Positions 11,823-18,006 of a stretch of DNA of 31,638 bases are shown here, piece by piece. Positions within the stretch are counted from its first letter, which is position 1; every line of letters begins with the position of its first letter. The stretch is from Xanthobacteraceae bacterium (GTDB taxonomy: Bacteria > Pseudomonadota > Alphaproteobacteria > Rhizobiales > Xanthobacteraceae), in the NCBI GenBank assembly GCA_030037185.1, contig JASHRR010001421.1, positions 1 through 31,638 on the forward strand. The letters run 5' to 3'. The notes under the pieces were generated by a model. That model saw only the letters and a list, made by a program, of their open reading frames with translations, did no database searches and had not been told where the DNA came from. The position numbers and the translations under genes are program-made.

Positions 11823-12794
11823 TCACCTTGACTTGTGCGCTCGGCTTTCCCGCCGCGGTATGCCGTAATCCCGATAAAGCTCGGCGAAGTCCTCCGCGAG
11901 TTCATAACACAACGTGAGCTTGCGGGTCGACTGGTCCCACTTAGCATTGATGAACCCGCAAGTTTGCATTTCCAGGGAAAACGGAGCTGGCCACGCGACG
12001 AGTTCGCTTGACTGTGCGGCAACACCGTCCAATAATCGAATGGAGCGTGCGATCTGAGCTGCTATTTCAAGCTTGCCCTTGGCCTCCCCATAAACCACGT
12101 CGATTTTTGTCTTTGGCTGATCGGCAGCGCGGACATGGGGTTGGAGCACTACGCCCCAAGATTTAGCCGCTTTCCGATAATCTTCGCTGCAGCTTTCCCG
12201 GCGGTCCTTCGGCAGTTTTGTCTCTTCTGCAAGGTCCTTAAATCTAACCGGATCGGCGCCGACCATGTAGCAGACGATCTGGTAGGCGCGCTGCTGATTA
12301 AGGCCGTGGTCATCGTAGTAGACGACGGGCTCGCCCTCTTTCTTGTCGCGCCGCTCGGCCATGAACCACCCCTTTGCCGCCTCCGCCAGTACGTGCTCGG
12401 AAAACTCCGATTTTATATGGATGAGTGTCAGACTGGCAAAAGAGTCCGCAGCATCTTCCTCTCTTCCAAGCACCGGCAAATCCAGTTCCCCAATGGTTGT
12501 ATGGCCCAATTCGTGCAGGAGCACGAACAACATATTCCCAGATACGAATTCTGCGAGTTGCTCTCGGCGATCGGCTGGAATGCCCTTCAGTCGCGACTGG
12601 TTGCCGACCGCCCGGACCGCCTCATCGATCCTAGCTTTAAATCTCTCGAACTCGGCAGGCGTCGGTTGCGCCAAGGCCTCGCTAAGGCCGATCAAGCCAA
12701 GCGGGAGCAGAAGCAACAGGTGCCGCACGGACGACCATTTCGTCACCGATGGATCACCATCGCAAGCCGCCCGTCGCAATCGGAAATAACGCAT
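11823..12794 (-). CDS. Exported DUF4344-type putative zinc metallopeptidase
   Basis: A 323-residue protein with a zincin HExxH motif: HELGH at residues 94-98 inside NMLFVLLHELGHTTIGELDL, followed by GREEDAADSFASL, whose acidic residues may include the third metal ligand. This pairing is the signature of DUF4344 (putative metallopeptidase). The ATG at 12794 has GAGG six bases upstream, and the N-terminal part holds a hydrophobic segment (HLLLLLPLGLIGLSEALAQ, residues 25-43) that looks like a signal peptide with cleavage after ALA; starts further upstream (the frame is open to 13139) would bury it. GTG codons just before this segment are alternative starts. Four later cysteines may form disulfides. 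The gene is directly upstream of the patatin gene. Substrate unknown. Confidence 0.82.
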   Translation of the reverse strand: MRYFRLRRAACDGDPSVTKWSSVRHLLLLLPLGLIGLSEALAQPTPAEFERFKARIDEAVRAVGNQSRLKGIPADRREQLAEFVSGNMLFVLLHELGHTTIGELDLPVLGREEDAADSFASLTLIHIKSEFSEHVLAEAAKGWFMAERRDKKEGEPVVYYDDHGLNQQRAYQIVCYMVGADPVRFKDLAEETKLPKDRRESCSEDYRKAAKSWGVVLQPHVRAADQPKTKIDVVYGEAKGKLEIAAQIARSIRLLDGVAAQSSELVAWPAPFSLEMQTCGFINAKWDQSTRKLTLCYELAEDFAELYRDYGIPRRESRAHKSR

Positions 12795-13403
12795 CAGGAC
12801 CCTCATGGCTGAGAAATGGCCCATGCTAGCAAACCAGGTGACCTTCGTCATTGCGAAACCATGGTCGAAGCAGCTTGACTTGAGAGCTCCTGCCGAACAG
12901 TCCCATCGGCGCCATTGTGGTACCGACCCGGCTGCGGCAGAGCGGCAGTCGCGCCTGGTCGCCGGCGACGATCGTTTTGCGAGGCGAGAAAGCACGTTCG
13001 GGATCACGCCGAGCAAGCCTCGTGCCCGGGGAGGTCTTGAAGATAGCATGGCGCGCGCTTCACAAACTTCAGCATGCCAATGGCTGATAAGCATTCGGCG
13101 CGGCTGATCACACGATGACTGATCCAACGAGGATCGCAACGGCGCCCGAAGTTACGACTGATTAGGCTGCGCAATGCGGGACCATCGCAATTCCGGCAGT
13201 CCCTTCGCAATTCGGCTGCAAGTCCATCGGCGAATCTGGGCGCGACTCGGATGCGGCGATCTGCGTTTGCCATGACCAGCATGGTCGAGGAACTGAGCGC
13301 GCTGCTATGACAAGCGGCCTGATCTAACTCATCGCGTCGCCAATGCTGGGCACTCTTTGGCTGTTGGGCATCTCCTCAAGGAGTGCCTATTCTTCCCTGT
13401 CGG
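12795..13403. other. Gene-free stretch
   Basis: About 600 bases without a credible gene. A CGTCATTGCGA segment near 12847 followed by GGTCGAAGCAGC is similar to the start of an interspersed repeat that I recall from Bradyrhizobium chromosomes, but only about 30 bases match loosely, so it is noted and not called as a repeat. Confidence 0.3.
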
Positions 13404-14096: not shown

Positions 14097-14660
14097 GTGC
14101 CCAAAGGTAATCTAGACACGCTCTCGCCAGAGGATTTCAGGGCCGCCTGGGATGCCCTCCCCAAGGCCGATAAGGCACGTGTCGGCTTGATTGCAAGAGA
14201 GTGGACGTCGGGCACATCGTTTGAGTGGCAAGAGTTGTTGAACGAAGCCATCGTGCGCGCCTTAGCCGGAACCAGAAAGTGCCCGAGAGAGATTTCACCC
14301 GTGCTGTTTCTGGCCCAGACAATGCGCAGCATCCGAAGCGAATGGAGGAACAAATGGCTTCGGGAGCATGATCGAACTTCAGACAATCCAGGCGCCGACG
14401 GTATAGACCGTCTGTCGGAGGAAAACGAACGCGACGTCGAAAATGCCGTCGCCAGAGCGCTGGCATACCTGTCTGGCGATGATGATGCACTTAAATATTT
14501 GACGGGCTTACTGGATGGCTGGACTCGCCGCGAGTGCATCGAACGATTTCAATGGACCAAAACTCGCTTCGAAACGGTGCGCAGGCGATTTAATCACAAG
14601 ATGGCAAGATTAGGAGAACAGCTTCGGACCCCACCCCCAGCGGAGGAAGCCGCCGAATGA
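14097..14660 (+). CDS. Sigma-70-like helix-turn-helix protein
   Basis: A 187-residue protein starting at GTG, directly after a purine-rich GAGGGAGGG. The middle part, WQELLNEAIVRALAGTRKC and PVLFLAQTMRSIRSEWRNKW, has the look of a sigma region 2 helix pair, and the C-terminal GWTRRECIERFQWTKTRFETV followed by RRRFNHKMARL looks like a region 4 helix-turn-helix. The similarity to true ECF factors is remote, and the protein is best described as a sigma-like regulator. The end overlaps the next gene by ATGA, so both proteins are probably made in fixed ratio. As I recall, similar proteins in Proteobacteria sit next to a small protein that starts like the N-terminal domain of the following gene. 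Target genes unknown. Confidence 0.7.
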   Translation: MPKGNLDTLSPEDFRAAWDALPKADKARVGLIAREWTSGTSFEWQELLNEAIVRALAGTRKCPREISPVLFLAQTMRSIRSEWRNKWLREHDRTSDNPGADGIDRLSEENERDVENAVARALAYLSGDDDALKYLTGLLDGWTRRECIERFQWTKTRFETVRRRFNHKMARLGEQLRTPPPAEEAAE

Positions 14661-15496
14661 GCGTCAAAAATAAAGCAGATCTGGACGCGCTCGAGCGCAT
14701 GATGGACGGAGTAGTCGATGGCATCTTGAGTGCGTCAGACAGCGAAATTATCGCGGAAGTGCGCGAGCGGTACGGAGACGTGGCGACATTTGTCGCTGAC
14801 GTCGACGATGTATTCCACAAAGCCATATACCAACGACACCTAACGGGTGGCGGGGTTGCGAAGGCCGAGGCTACCGCCCATAGACTTTCGGAGGGTGCGA
14901 CGCTTAGCGGGAGCCGTGCACAGGAAGCGAGACTGGCTTCAGCCTCCGGCTCGCGGACAAATGTACGGGAAGCGCTGCTGGAAGCAGTTCCCAGCCTGCG
15001 CGCATTCGCAATCTCCTTGTGCGGCAATGTCGACCGCGCCGATGACCTGGTGCAGGAGGCGCTGCTGCGGGCCTGGGCCAACATGGGCTCCTTCCAGCCC
15101 GGCACGAACATGTCGGCGTGGCTGTTTACGATCCTGCGCAATCTCTTCCGCTCGGAGTACCGCAAGCGGCGGCGCGAGGTCGAGGACGTCGACGGCTCCT
15201 GTGCGGAATCACTGACGTCGCTGCCGGAGCAGAATAGCCGGCTTGAGATGGTCGAGTTCAAGAATGCCCTCAAGCTCCTGCCCTCCGAGCAGCGCGAATC
15301 ATTGATCCTCGTCGCCGCTTCGGGGTTTTCATATGAAGAGGCCGCGCAAATCTGCGGCTGCGCCGTCGGCACCATCAAGAGCCGGGTCAACCGTGCCCGC
15401 AGCAGGCTGGCCGAGATTCGCGCAATCGACAGCGCCAGCGATTTGTCCCGAAGAGAAGGGTCGTACCGCAATCAAACCCTCGCTAAACGGCAGTAG
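14657..15496 (+). CDS. EcfG-like (ECF15-type) sigma factor fused to an N-terminal partner domain
   Basis: A 279-residue protein with two parts. Residues 1 to about 65 (LDALERMMDGVVDGILSASD, EIIAEVRERYGD, ADVDDVFHKAI) resemble a small stand-alone protein usually encoded beside a sigma-like gene. Residues from about 105 are a complete ECF sigma factor: region 2 with VPSLRAFAISLCGN, DRADDLVQEALLRAW and FQPGTNMSAWLFTILRNLF, a REVEDVDG linker, and region 4 with LLPSEQRESLILVAASGFSY and YEEAAQICGCAVGTIKSRV. This is the EcfG pattern of the alphaproteobacterial general stress response. Between the parts lies a Ser/Ala-rich linker without an in-frame ATG, GTG or TTG near the junction, so the sigma domain has no obvious own start. 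No NepR or PhyR gene is nearby. Confidence 0.85.
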   Translation: MSVKNKADLDALERMMDGVVDGILSASDSEIIAEVRERYGDVATFVADVDDVFHKAIYQRHLTGGGVAKAEATAHRLSEGATLSGSRAQEARLASASGSRTNVREALLEAVPSLRAFAISLCGNVDRADDLVQEALLRAWANMGSFQPGTNMSAWLFTILRNLFRSEYRKRRREVEDVDGSCAESLTSLPEQNSRLEMVEFKNALKLLPSEQRESLILVAASGFSYEEAAQICGCAVGTIKSRVNRARSRLAEIRAIDSASDLSRREGSYRNQTLAKRQ

Positions 15497-15598
15497 AGAG
15501 ATTTTCTTAAATCGTAAGTAAGGGGAGAATCCGCCCATGGGCCTTCGAATCTCTCAAGCGATCGAGTATCGGCCGCAGGTCGTAGCGGACAGTTGGTG

Positions 15599-16310
15599 AT
15601 GCGAGTCAATTGGCGCCGAGTGGCCTTTGCGGGGCTGCTGGCGGCGACAGTCACGATATTGGTGACAATACGGGTGACCCTCAGATTTCAAGCCACTGGC
15701 GAGCGCACCCTACAGGTGGTCTCGGGTGGCCCGTCGACCCCGTAACTCGTCGCAGAGCCTGTGCCTCAGGGGACTCGCTCACCGCTGGTAGCGCTGGGCA
15801 TTTTTGTCCGCGGGCCGAGCGAACTCGCGTCAGCCGCCACGGTAGAGATCATCGGTCTTCCGAGCGGGTCGGTACGATCAGCGGGCCGGCCGCTCGGCAA
15901 CCGTTGGCCTATTTCCGCCGCCCAGCTTTCCGGTGCGGCGATTCTTCGACCGCGCCATTTTGCCGGTGCGGTCGATCTTGAGGCGGAACTGCGGCTGGCG
16001 GACGACACGCTGGCGGAGCGCCGATCGGTGCACCGGGCGATGACCGACCCGCAGCTTGCCGCTCAGGAGACCATACTTCTCCTCAGCAAGGCCGGGGGTT
16101 TTTCGGCTGCGCGTCTAGCGCTACGGCGGGCCGCGAACGCTGGCAACGCCCGCGCTGCGCTGTTACTTGGCGGGACATACGGACGCCGACCCTACCACAG
16201 CGCGAACTTGGTATGAGAAGGCCGCGAAGTTTGGTTCAGAGGCAGCGCGCCAACGGCTCGATCGACTTGCCAGCGAGGAGCCCGGGCGCGATCTGCCAAG
16301 TCGTCGATGA
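15599..16310 (+). pseudogene. Membrane-anchored Sel1-type repeat protein, broken
   Basis: An ATG at 15599 (possibly GTG at 15596) opens a frame with a membrane segment, RVAFAGLLAATVTILVTIRV, and stops at TAA 15743-15745 after 48 codons. The same frame then continues without a start: PLVALGIFVRGPSELASA, VEIIGLPSG, GRPLGNRWPISAAQL, DLEAELRLADDTLAERRS, and ALRRAANAGNARAALLLGG. Near 16178 one base shifts the frame, after which DADPTTARTWYEKAAKFGS and EAARQRLDRLAS follow, a Sel1-like repeat, ending at TGA 16308-16310. The parts align into one exported or membrane-anchored protein with C-terminal Sel1-type helices as known in Bradyrhizobium. An in-frame stop plus a frameshift argue for a pseudogene; it follows the sigma gene on the same strand. 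Confidence 0.7.
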
Positions 16311-16342
16311 TGGTGCGTTGAGGTGCAACTGGAGGCAGCCAG

Positions 16343-16940
16343 ATGACCGAGTCAGAAGTGGTGTCGGTGACCGGTGGGGCGAGTGGCATTGGAGCGGCGG
16401 TTGCCAAGCGGTTCGCGGCCGCCGGCACCCGAGTGGTGATCGCGGACATCGACACCCCTCGCGGCGCGGCGCCGGCCGAGCGGATCGGCGCGCGGTTTGT
16501 GCGCACTGACGTCCGCATCGAAGCAGACAACGACAACATGGTGGACGCCGCGGTCAGCGAGTTCGGCCGGCTGGACATCGTCCACCTCAACGCCGGGGTG
16601 GGCTATGGCGGGAACGTCGAAATTCGACCTCGAGCGCTACCGCCGGGTGATGGCAGTGAACCTGGACGGCACCACGTTCGGCATCCGCGCTGCTTGGCGG
16701 GTGATGTCGAAGGTCGGCAGAAGCGCCATCGTGGTGACCTCCAGCCCTGGCGGGGGATCGCCCCAAGCCAATTTGACCCGTTCTACTCGGCCACCAAGCA
16801 CGCGATCATCGGCCTGGTGCGGTCGCTGGCCCGCGGTTGGGAGGCGGGTGGCTCCAAGGTCACGCTCAACGCGGTGTGCCCGGGTTTCGTGCGCACACCG
16901 ATCCTGCCGGACGAAACGTGGTGGCGGATCGCCGCGATGG
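16343..16940 (+). pseudogene. Short-chain dehydrogenase/reductase (SDR), frameshifted and truncated
   Basis: The gene still has an SD (GGAGG, seven bases before ATG 16343) and starts with the NAD(P)-binding glycine motif TGGASGIG at residues 10-17, then VVIADIDTPRG and LDIVHLNAGVGYGGN. At about 16622 the frame must shift to read FDLERYRRVMAVNLDGTTFG and SAIVVTSSPGG, and at about 16760 it shifts back for FYSATKHAIIGLVRSLARG, which has the catalytic YxxxK, and VTLNAVCPGFVRTPILPDE. The C-terminal end of the SDR fold is missing and replaced by an unrelated serine-hydrolase-like tail. Two single-base shifts that cancel could also be sequencing errors, but the truncation supports real decay. Confidence 0.72.
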
Positions 16941-16949
16941 ATACCGTCC

Positions 16950-17135
16950 GCGCTGATCAGCGAACGGCACGCGCCGCTCGTCTACAACACTATGCCGGGC
17001 CACGCAGAGTTTGGCGAACCACACGGCCTGGGCTTCCAGCCCGGCAGTTATCGCGGTGAGCGGATCGTTTGGCACGGCGGCGGTTGGCCTGGCTGGGGCA
17101 CGTTGATGACACGCGTGCCAGACTTTGGCACGGCG
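16950..17135 (+). pseudogene. C-terminal fragment of a beta-lactamase-like serine hydrolase
   Basis: In the frame of 16497, the stretch LVYNTMPGHAEFGEPHGLGF, then GSYRGERIVWHGGGWPGWG and TLMTRVPDFG is typical of the end of class-C-beta-lactamase-related serine hydrolases, which conserve YGLGF...G...HGGGxPGF...M...P. The catalytic SxxK and YxN motifs are not in the window, so only a tail is left. It is joined directly to the SDR relic on its left, and about 35 bases on its right begins an ABC ATPase relic on the other strand. Confidence 0.6.
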
Positions 17136-17169
17136 TTGCCGTCTTCGCGAATCGCAGTTTCGGGTACAA

Positions 17170-17688
17170 AGCGGTTTGACCGGCCCGACGAGATTGCTCG
17201 CGGATAAAATCACGGATTGCGGCCTTCGCCGTAATATCGAGACCGATGGTCGGTTCATCGAGAAGGCAATTTCGGTTCGTGGAGCAAGCTCGCTGTGATT
17301 TCACAGCGGATCCGTTGGCCGAGGCAAAGTTGTCGAACCGGCTGGTCTATGCGTCCCGCCGGGAGTTCAGCCCAAAGCTGGGGAGCGCTGGCCGAACACG
17401 ACACCTATGCCGTAGGCAAGGGCGCGGCGTTGTCGCCATGGCGTCAGGCCGAGAACCTCCGCGCTGCCGGAGGTGGGCTGCAAGACGCCGGATAGCATTT
17501 TCAAGGTTGTGGACTTGCCTGCGCGGTTCGGCCCGATAATGGCGACGCGTTCGCCTTCAGACACCGTGAAGGACACGCCGCAAACGGCATCTTGCATTTG
17601 GGAGAGAAAAGGCCCCAAATGGACCGCGCCGGCGTTTAATGCGGCGATAGGCCTTGCGCAACTCCCGAACGGCGATGACTGGGGACAT
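17170..17688 (-). pseudogene. ABC transporter ATPase relic (DrrA/NatA-like), internal deletion
   Basis: Read on the minus strand from ATG 17688: SPVIAVRELRKAYRRIKRRR, then after a frame change CGVSFTVSEGERVAIIGPNR and AGKSTTLKMLSGVLQPTSG. The Walker A reads GPNRAGKST with Arg where Gly is usual. After RQRRALAYGIGVVFGQRS the sequence jumps to QPVRQLCLGQRIRCEITAS and LLHEP (signature region), then after another shift LLDEPTIGLDITAKAAIRDF (Walker B/D-loop). About 40-45 residues between the Q-loop and the signature motif are missing. Family members export drugs or viologens with a separate permease, which is not found here. The gene cannot make a working ATPase. Confidence 0.72.
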
Positions 17689-17699
17689 AATGAAGCTCG

Positions 17700-18006
17700 A
17701 ATGAAGCGGTGACGTGAGTGGCGAACTCGGATGACGCGGCGGTTAACCTATATCCCGCCCCTTTAAGGGATGGATTGCGGTCTACACACATCGTCCGAAT
17801 TTGCGTGGTCATCGCTTTCGAGCTCGGCCCAGAAAGAATTGGTACGCAAATTGGCAGGGCAGCAATAACTGCGCCACGTGCCGAACGCCGGGCTAAGCCG
17901 AGACCCGAGCCTCGGCTGCTTTCGCGACGCGTTATCGGCAGAGAACATTTTGATGCAAAAACCCGAGGGAGGAGTCCCAGGCTCAATTTTGCAATCCCAC
18001 CGGCCG
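17700..18006. other. Gene-free stretch
   Basis: About 300 bases between the ABC relic and the end of the FGE-fusion gene. No start, motif, terminator or repeat that I can support. Confidence 0.35.

Follow-up and report, generated by a model that had tools for sequence, protein, structure and literature searches.

A putative chimera of a displaced ecfG copy and a CapH-like small-protein gene in a Xanthobacteraceae bacterium

About half of the complete alphaproteobacterial genomes carry several copies of EcfG and, according to the sections of that survey drawn on here, copies away from phyR-nepR are common, an adjoining nepR or phyR not being a feature of secondary copies (PMC3892343). In Methylobacteriaceae, EcfG bears a NepR-like N-terminal extension of about 55 residues, for which the authors suggest an old gene fusion; in the portions of their paper used here, two-hybrid assays gave NepR interactions with truncated EcfG1 and EcfG5, and both natural EcfG1 isoforms were able to interact with NepR in pull-downs (PMC4814048). 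A third described system, the DNA-damage-responsive pair CapH-CapP, consists, as presented in excerpts of two reports, of a protease activated by ssDNA and the DNA-binding repressor of immune operons that it cleaves (PMC13373217, PMC10904395). Here we describe a fused gene, found in a stretch of 31,638 nucleotides (the window), that appears to bring an EcfG sigma factor together with part of a CapH-like protein.

The gene pair and its reading frame

The window carries the following features around the fused gene.

14097..14660, forward strand: 187-aa sigma-like protein, distant kin of ECF sigma factors; GTG start; first gene of the putative ancestral operon
14657..15496, forward strand: fused gene, open for 279 codons (279 aa)
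14657..14929, forward strand: N-part of the fusion, residues 1-91; front half of a CapH-like small protein
14930..14956, forward strand: junction, residues 92-100, without the canonical EcfG start codon
14987..15175, forward strand: EcfG sigma region 2, residues 111-173 (Pfam)
15254..15409, forward strand: EcfG sigma region 4, residues 200-251 (Pfam)
15440..15496, forward strand: C-terminal tail, in a frame that differs from the tails of the related entries P0010-P0012 (DNA compared with proteins, by eye)
15586..17747, strand unassigned: gene debris 3' of the fusion, a short-chain dehydrogenase over two frames and an ABC-transporter ATPase fragment

Within the debris, the short-chain dehydrogenase pseudogene lies beside the fusion at 16322-17204 (forward strand), and the ATPase fragment, which is N-terminal and apparently a gene remnant, at 17370-17618 (reverse strand). 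About 1 kb upstream of the pair is a putative metallopeptidase with a HELGH motif (11826-13139, reverse strand), which Pfam assigns to DUF4344 and not to M78.

The preliminary description had claimed one continuous frame joining an extra N-terminal part to an EcfG sigma factor, and the frame is indeed open throughout, with Pfam matches to both Sigma70_r2 (E 4.4e-16) and Sigma70_r4_2 (E 3.6e-14). Its claim that the sigma domain has no separate start near the junction also stands: there is no in-frame ATG, GTG or TTG from codon 43 to codon 120 of the fused ORF, and the first start-type codon past codon 120 is a TTG at codon 121, within region 2. In the closest genomic ecfG found (L001), the start ATG overlaps the nepR stop, and the aligned window codon, codon 97, is TCC; the sigma domain thus appears to lack a start of its own here. 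The overlap claimed with the upstream gene was seen as ATGA at 14657-14660, the sigma likeness of that gene's product being remote.

The 187-aa product aligns with the EcfG profile at an hhalign probability of 73.5 (E 3e-5), colinear over both sigma regions. It has no Pfam sigma match, its only NCBIfam match is to TIGR02983 (E 0.0023, far below the model cut-off), and its profile found no meaningful match among the sequences of solved structures; we regard the protein as remotely sigma-like. No close relative was confirmed among the genome contigs. The wider family was found at E<=1e-4 in 49 of the 265 genomes of the genus of L060 (a Bradyrhizobium MAG), in one of 12 mixed kin genomes, and at E<=1e-6 in 7 of 297 genomes of the order, the genus and order searches together giving 61 distinct places.

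Origins of the two halves

Residues 1-100 of the fusion gave no Pfam or NCBIfam match better than E 0.028 and nothing convincing in PHROGs or PADLOC. When the N-part was searched in the family of the L001 genome, 17 of 391 genomes matched at E<=0.01. The four best matches (L111-L114, E 1.2e-9, 1.5e-8, 4.5e-7 and 1.5e-5) are all stand-alone small proteins, each followed by an M78 gene; the remaining matches among the 17 genomes have E 7.6e-4 and weaker. Gene order in L111-L113 is sigma-like gene, small protein of about 150 aa and M78 gene, the last being PF06114 in all three. In a further locus, L134, the small protein is 34% identical to window residues 1-91 (tblastn, E 2.4e-10). By multiple alignment the window N-part corresponds to the front half of these proteins, without the back half that holds a conserved AARK...LSD stretch.

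The same arrangement emerged with the sigma-like gene as bait. Among 36 loci (L081-L110 and L131-L136, mostly the better-scoring of the 61 places), a small-protein match lies downstream on the same strand in 24, and in 14 it is joined by an M78 gene; these matches were taken at E<=0.01, with many near that limit, from a model whose seeds were the L111-L113 small proteins and the N-part of the window. One bait locus, L135, is the same place as the seed L111, and L102, L103 and L106 have identical protein products. Stand-alone homologues of the N-part beside homologues of the 187-aa protein, which the preliminary description had proposed to look for, are thus found as the second genes of a sigma-like, small protein and M78 operon. 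The N-part and the sigma-like partner are linked by descent, both going back to the same ancestral operon. We conclude with good confidence that this separate operon probably supplied the N-part, as the front half of its small second gene product.

Each of the 16 M78 proteins scanned has a PADLOC capP match (best 3e-63), and their best solved chain is CapP itself (7t5t, E 6.6e-14). PADLOC capH is matched at E<=1, mostly weakly, by 14 of 18 small proteins (best 1.9e-8), the 18 being the window N-part and 17 genome proteins (19 matches below 1e-6 minus the duplicates L110 and L135). The capH match involves only the back half in L114, where the protein is cut in two, runs via the back half in L131 and covers most of the length in L097. 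By itself the window N-part has no capH match, and it is through its longer homologues that the CapH link is made; against the sequences of solved structures the small protein gave no meaningful match. Taken together, the capP and capH matches indicate an ancestral operon with the gene order sigma-like / CapH-like / CapP-like. No description of this arrangement was found in the literature searched, which is weak evidence of its being undescribed. The operon recurs at L082, L087, L094, L097-L099, L105, L109-L114, L131, L132 and L134-L136 (L110 and L114 are one place, as are L111 and L135), and it could act as a protease-controlled sigma switch.

Two further arrangements accompany the sigma-like family. 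A shorter version occurs in Bradyrhizobium kin (L081, L083-L086, L088-L091, L093, L096 and L107), in which the sigma-like gene overlaps a small gene of 85-100 aa; its product begins approximately with MTRWHP..., and M78 is not matched elsewhere in these loci. In L111 (2346-2780, forward strand) and L112 (488-913, reverse strand), the strand opposite the ancestral operon holds an adjoining ORF in which a MIYAINYDLKRPGQNY stretch is conserved.

Within the window, a CapP-type M78 peptidase has no match anywhere, and neither the back half of the small protein nor a CapP remnant was convincingly found (tblastn gave weak matches, none below E 0.03). An insertion of EcfG into the small-protein gene with the back half surviving downstream was rejected, there being no convincing remnant of it in the window. 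As to a viral origin, scans of IMG/VR confirmed no relative of the N-part or of the 187-aa protein. In a plasmid collection 112 records match, and among the 20 matches listed it is the sigma part only that does so.

The sigma half passes the NCBIfam model PRK12547.1 over residues 100-264 (233.4 bits against a cut-off of 219), and residues 101-258 are up to 95% identical to stand-alone EcfG proteins. By sequence, the nearest solved chain is 5uxx_A (E 1.3e-53), listed as a Bartonella quintana RpoE-NepR complex. In a tree of 81 EcfG-type genes, chosen by similarity to the window and including no outside family, the window sigma half is sister to the L001 ecfG with support of 100/93. Nucleotide similarity to L001 starts at window base 14953, at about the canonical start. 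This position, together with the sister relationship, points to a displaced copy of the lineage's ecfG joined to the small-protein gene, and we hold with good confidence that the sigma half is probably such a copy. The two halves would accordingly come from two loci, the second gene of the sigma-like / CapH-like / CapP-like operon and the lineage ecfG.

The L001 gene lies in a phyR-nepR-ecfG locus, with one EcfG-type promoter directly before nepR. The absence of NepR and PhyR noted in the preliminary description is borne out within the 31.6-kb window, by tblastn with the L001 proteins and a six-frame NepR HMM, yet it has no bearing on the host genome, and the closest EcfG does sit beside both genes. 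The EcfG-type promoter GGAAC-N15-19-CGTT occurs 0 times in the window, with 1.5 expected by chance, and a scan for Sigma70-type promoters and terminators found none.

Retention, decay and regulation of the fusion

The fused frame is found beyond the window. Among JGI proteins (the best 120 of 8000 scored candidates), the same join is present in P0009, a near-identical protein, and also occurs in P0010, P0011 and P0012, which are 84-89% identical to the window fusion, and in the partial P0014. A contig of 19129 bases is listed both for P0011 and for P0001, a homologue of the 187-aa protein, which suggests, short of proof, that the gene pair is the same there. In every pair of fusions compared, the sigma part is more conserved than the linker. 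Two other entries differ in their N-terminal region. P0013 has the linker and sigma domain of the window with a different N-terminus, and represents either another kind of join or a contig that is itself chimeric. P0008 is a 62-aa copy of the N-part whose frame ends in the linker, its last residues being another frame of the window linker.

We think it more likely than not that the fused gene, a chimera, is a secondary EcfG with an N-terminal appendage kept under weaker constraint than the canonical ecfG. The state of the sigma half bears directly on this reading. Regions 2 and 4 are complete. At 109 positions highly conserved in EcfG, the window protein and P0009 depart at 5, P0010 at 4, P0011 at 9, and P0012 and P0013 at 8 each, the partial P0014 being left out of this count. 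At the same positions, the stand-alone EcfG proteins depart at a median of 1, a ninetieth percentile of 2 and a maximum of 8, numbers that are lowered by the selection of this set for similarity to the window; it comprises 113 proteins among the matches listed, with the internally duplicated P0017 left out. P0010-P0012 each lack two residues between the sigma regions. The terminal branch of the window measures 0.18 against 0.066 for L001, and the ratio of nonsynonymous to synonymous changes (N:S) is 15:33 on the window branch against 1:29 for L001 (Fisher p 0.003), or 11 against 0 once path artefacts and double counts are removed (p 0.002). The window-branch ratio is about 0.18 of the neutral expectation, so the sigma half still seems constrained. 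Among 14 control EcfG genes in seven pairs, two exceed the window in N:S (L056, 19:25; L012, 17:29), and the excess is therefore not unique to fusions. The constraint on the sigma half appears relaxed, not absent.

The departures at conserved positions, the two-residue losses, the shifted tail and the downstream debris also fit a decaying gene. The absence of an EcfG-type promoter from the window, the P0008 copy, the low-confidence structure model and the missing capH match of the N-part likewise weigh against the secondary-EcfG reading. Decay is the main rival, in which rearrangement in a region rich in debris would have thrown up the fusion, its frame being open by inheritance and no longer useful. 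The longer branch and the N:S excess over L001 favour it, as do the broken adjoining genes and the P0008 copy that ends in the linker. We nevertheless judge it unlikely: N:S remains at about 0.18 of neutral, two of the 14 control genes reach higher values, and five further entries with 84-100% identity also carry the open fused frame, although protein databases show open frames only. A degenerate sigma domain, which the preliminary description had considered, agrees with what was found as regards relaxed constraint and the shifted tail, but not as regards the complete regions 2 and 4. It had likewise considered separate genes in relatives; relatives of the N-part do stand alone, but in a different operon.

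Quite unlikely, in our assessment, is self-contained regulation, in which the N-part would fold onto the sigma regions or bind the sigma-like protein as a cis anti-sigma factor, with NepR unneeded. The sigma part without a separate start, the overlap with the sigma-like gene and the precedent of the NepR-like extension in Methylobacterium EcfG (PMC4814048, in the portions used here) are in its favour. The N-part, however, shows no NepR similarity, with hhalign probabilities of 0.3-0.7 and nothing by the NepR HMM, whereas the M. radiotolerans EcfG extension, used as a positive control, was recognized by both (HMM E 7.7e-9, hhalign 93.8%). The sigma half is, moreover, closely like NepR-regulated EcfG, to judge from its nearest solved chain. 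AlphaFold2 modelled the fusion with low confidence (mean pLDDT 56, and 35-49 in the N-part), too poorly in the N-part to discuss contacts. The earlier proposal that the N-terminal domain replaces anti-sigma control is left unsupported by this comparison. A NepR origin of the N-part or the linker was rejected separately, as tblastn gave nothing near the gene, the six-frame HMM found none, and hhalign was negative with a working control.

That assembly or annotation united two separate genes is extremely improbable: P0013 could be a chimeric contig, but the other entries hold the same joined frame at 11-16% protein divergence, which speaks against both chance and assembly error, the latter having been foreseen in the preliminary description. 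The fusion is thus a real chimera common to several relatives.

Comparison with known systems

In the reading we prefer, that of a retained secondary EcfG, the front half of the small-protein gene would continue in frame into an ecfG copy, while its back half and the peptidase gene are missing; the sequences support this step. The product would be an EcfG sigma factor of the secondary kind, which the ATGA overlap couples to the sigma-like protein, and its regions 2 and 4 would still bind core polymerase and promoters of the EcfG type. The fusion is probably still sensitive to NepR and PhyR encoded elsewhere, and perhaps NepR-responsive in trans, while the N-part appendage may modulate the sigma domain or maintain a contact with the sigma-like protein. 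Control by CapP-type proteolysis has probably been lost, and the gene would be retained under its weaker constraint. We speculate further, and consider it very unlikely, that in the ancestral operon an ssDNA-activated CapP cleaves a CapH-like protein holding the sigma-like factor, and that the EcfG fusion, tethered to its sigma-like partner, connects the general stress response with this switch of the DNA-damage type, NepR playing no part.

If functional, the fusion would connect a sigma factor of the general stress response with a module that combines a sigma-like gene and a protease of the DNA-damage type. The sigma-like / CapH-like / CapP-like module recurs in Bradyrhizobium kin and in other genomes of the order, and this recurrence, with no description found in the literature searched, makes it a testable target in its own right.

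Relative to EcfG (ECF15), the window gene has both sigma regions, a PRK12547 score above the cut-off and a canonical sister gene; it differs in its foreign N-part of 91 aa, the loss of its own start codon and an altered tail, and in standing in a window without phyR, nepR or an EcfG promoter. As in the CapH-CapP pair, CapP is matched in the operon relatives of the window locus, and so, mostly weakly, is CapH; the source operon, however, adds a sigma-like first gene, and of the small protein the window keeps the front half alone, without CapP. With the Methylobacteriaceae proteins the window gene shares an N-terminal extension on EcfG, but the window extension is kin to a CapH-like small protein and is not NepR-like. 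EcfG with an N-terminal extension is already known, and what appears new here is the CapH-like origin of the extension, which, if the gene is functional, would represent a second route by which EcfG has acquired one.
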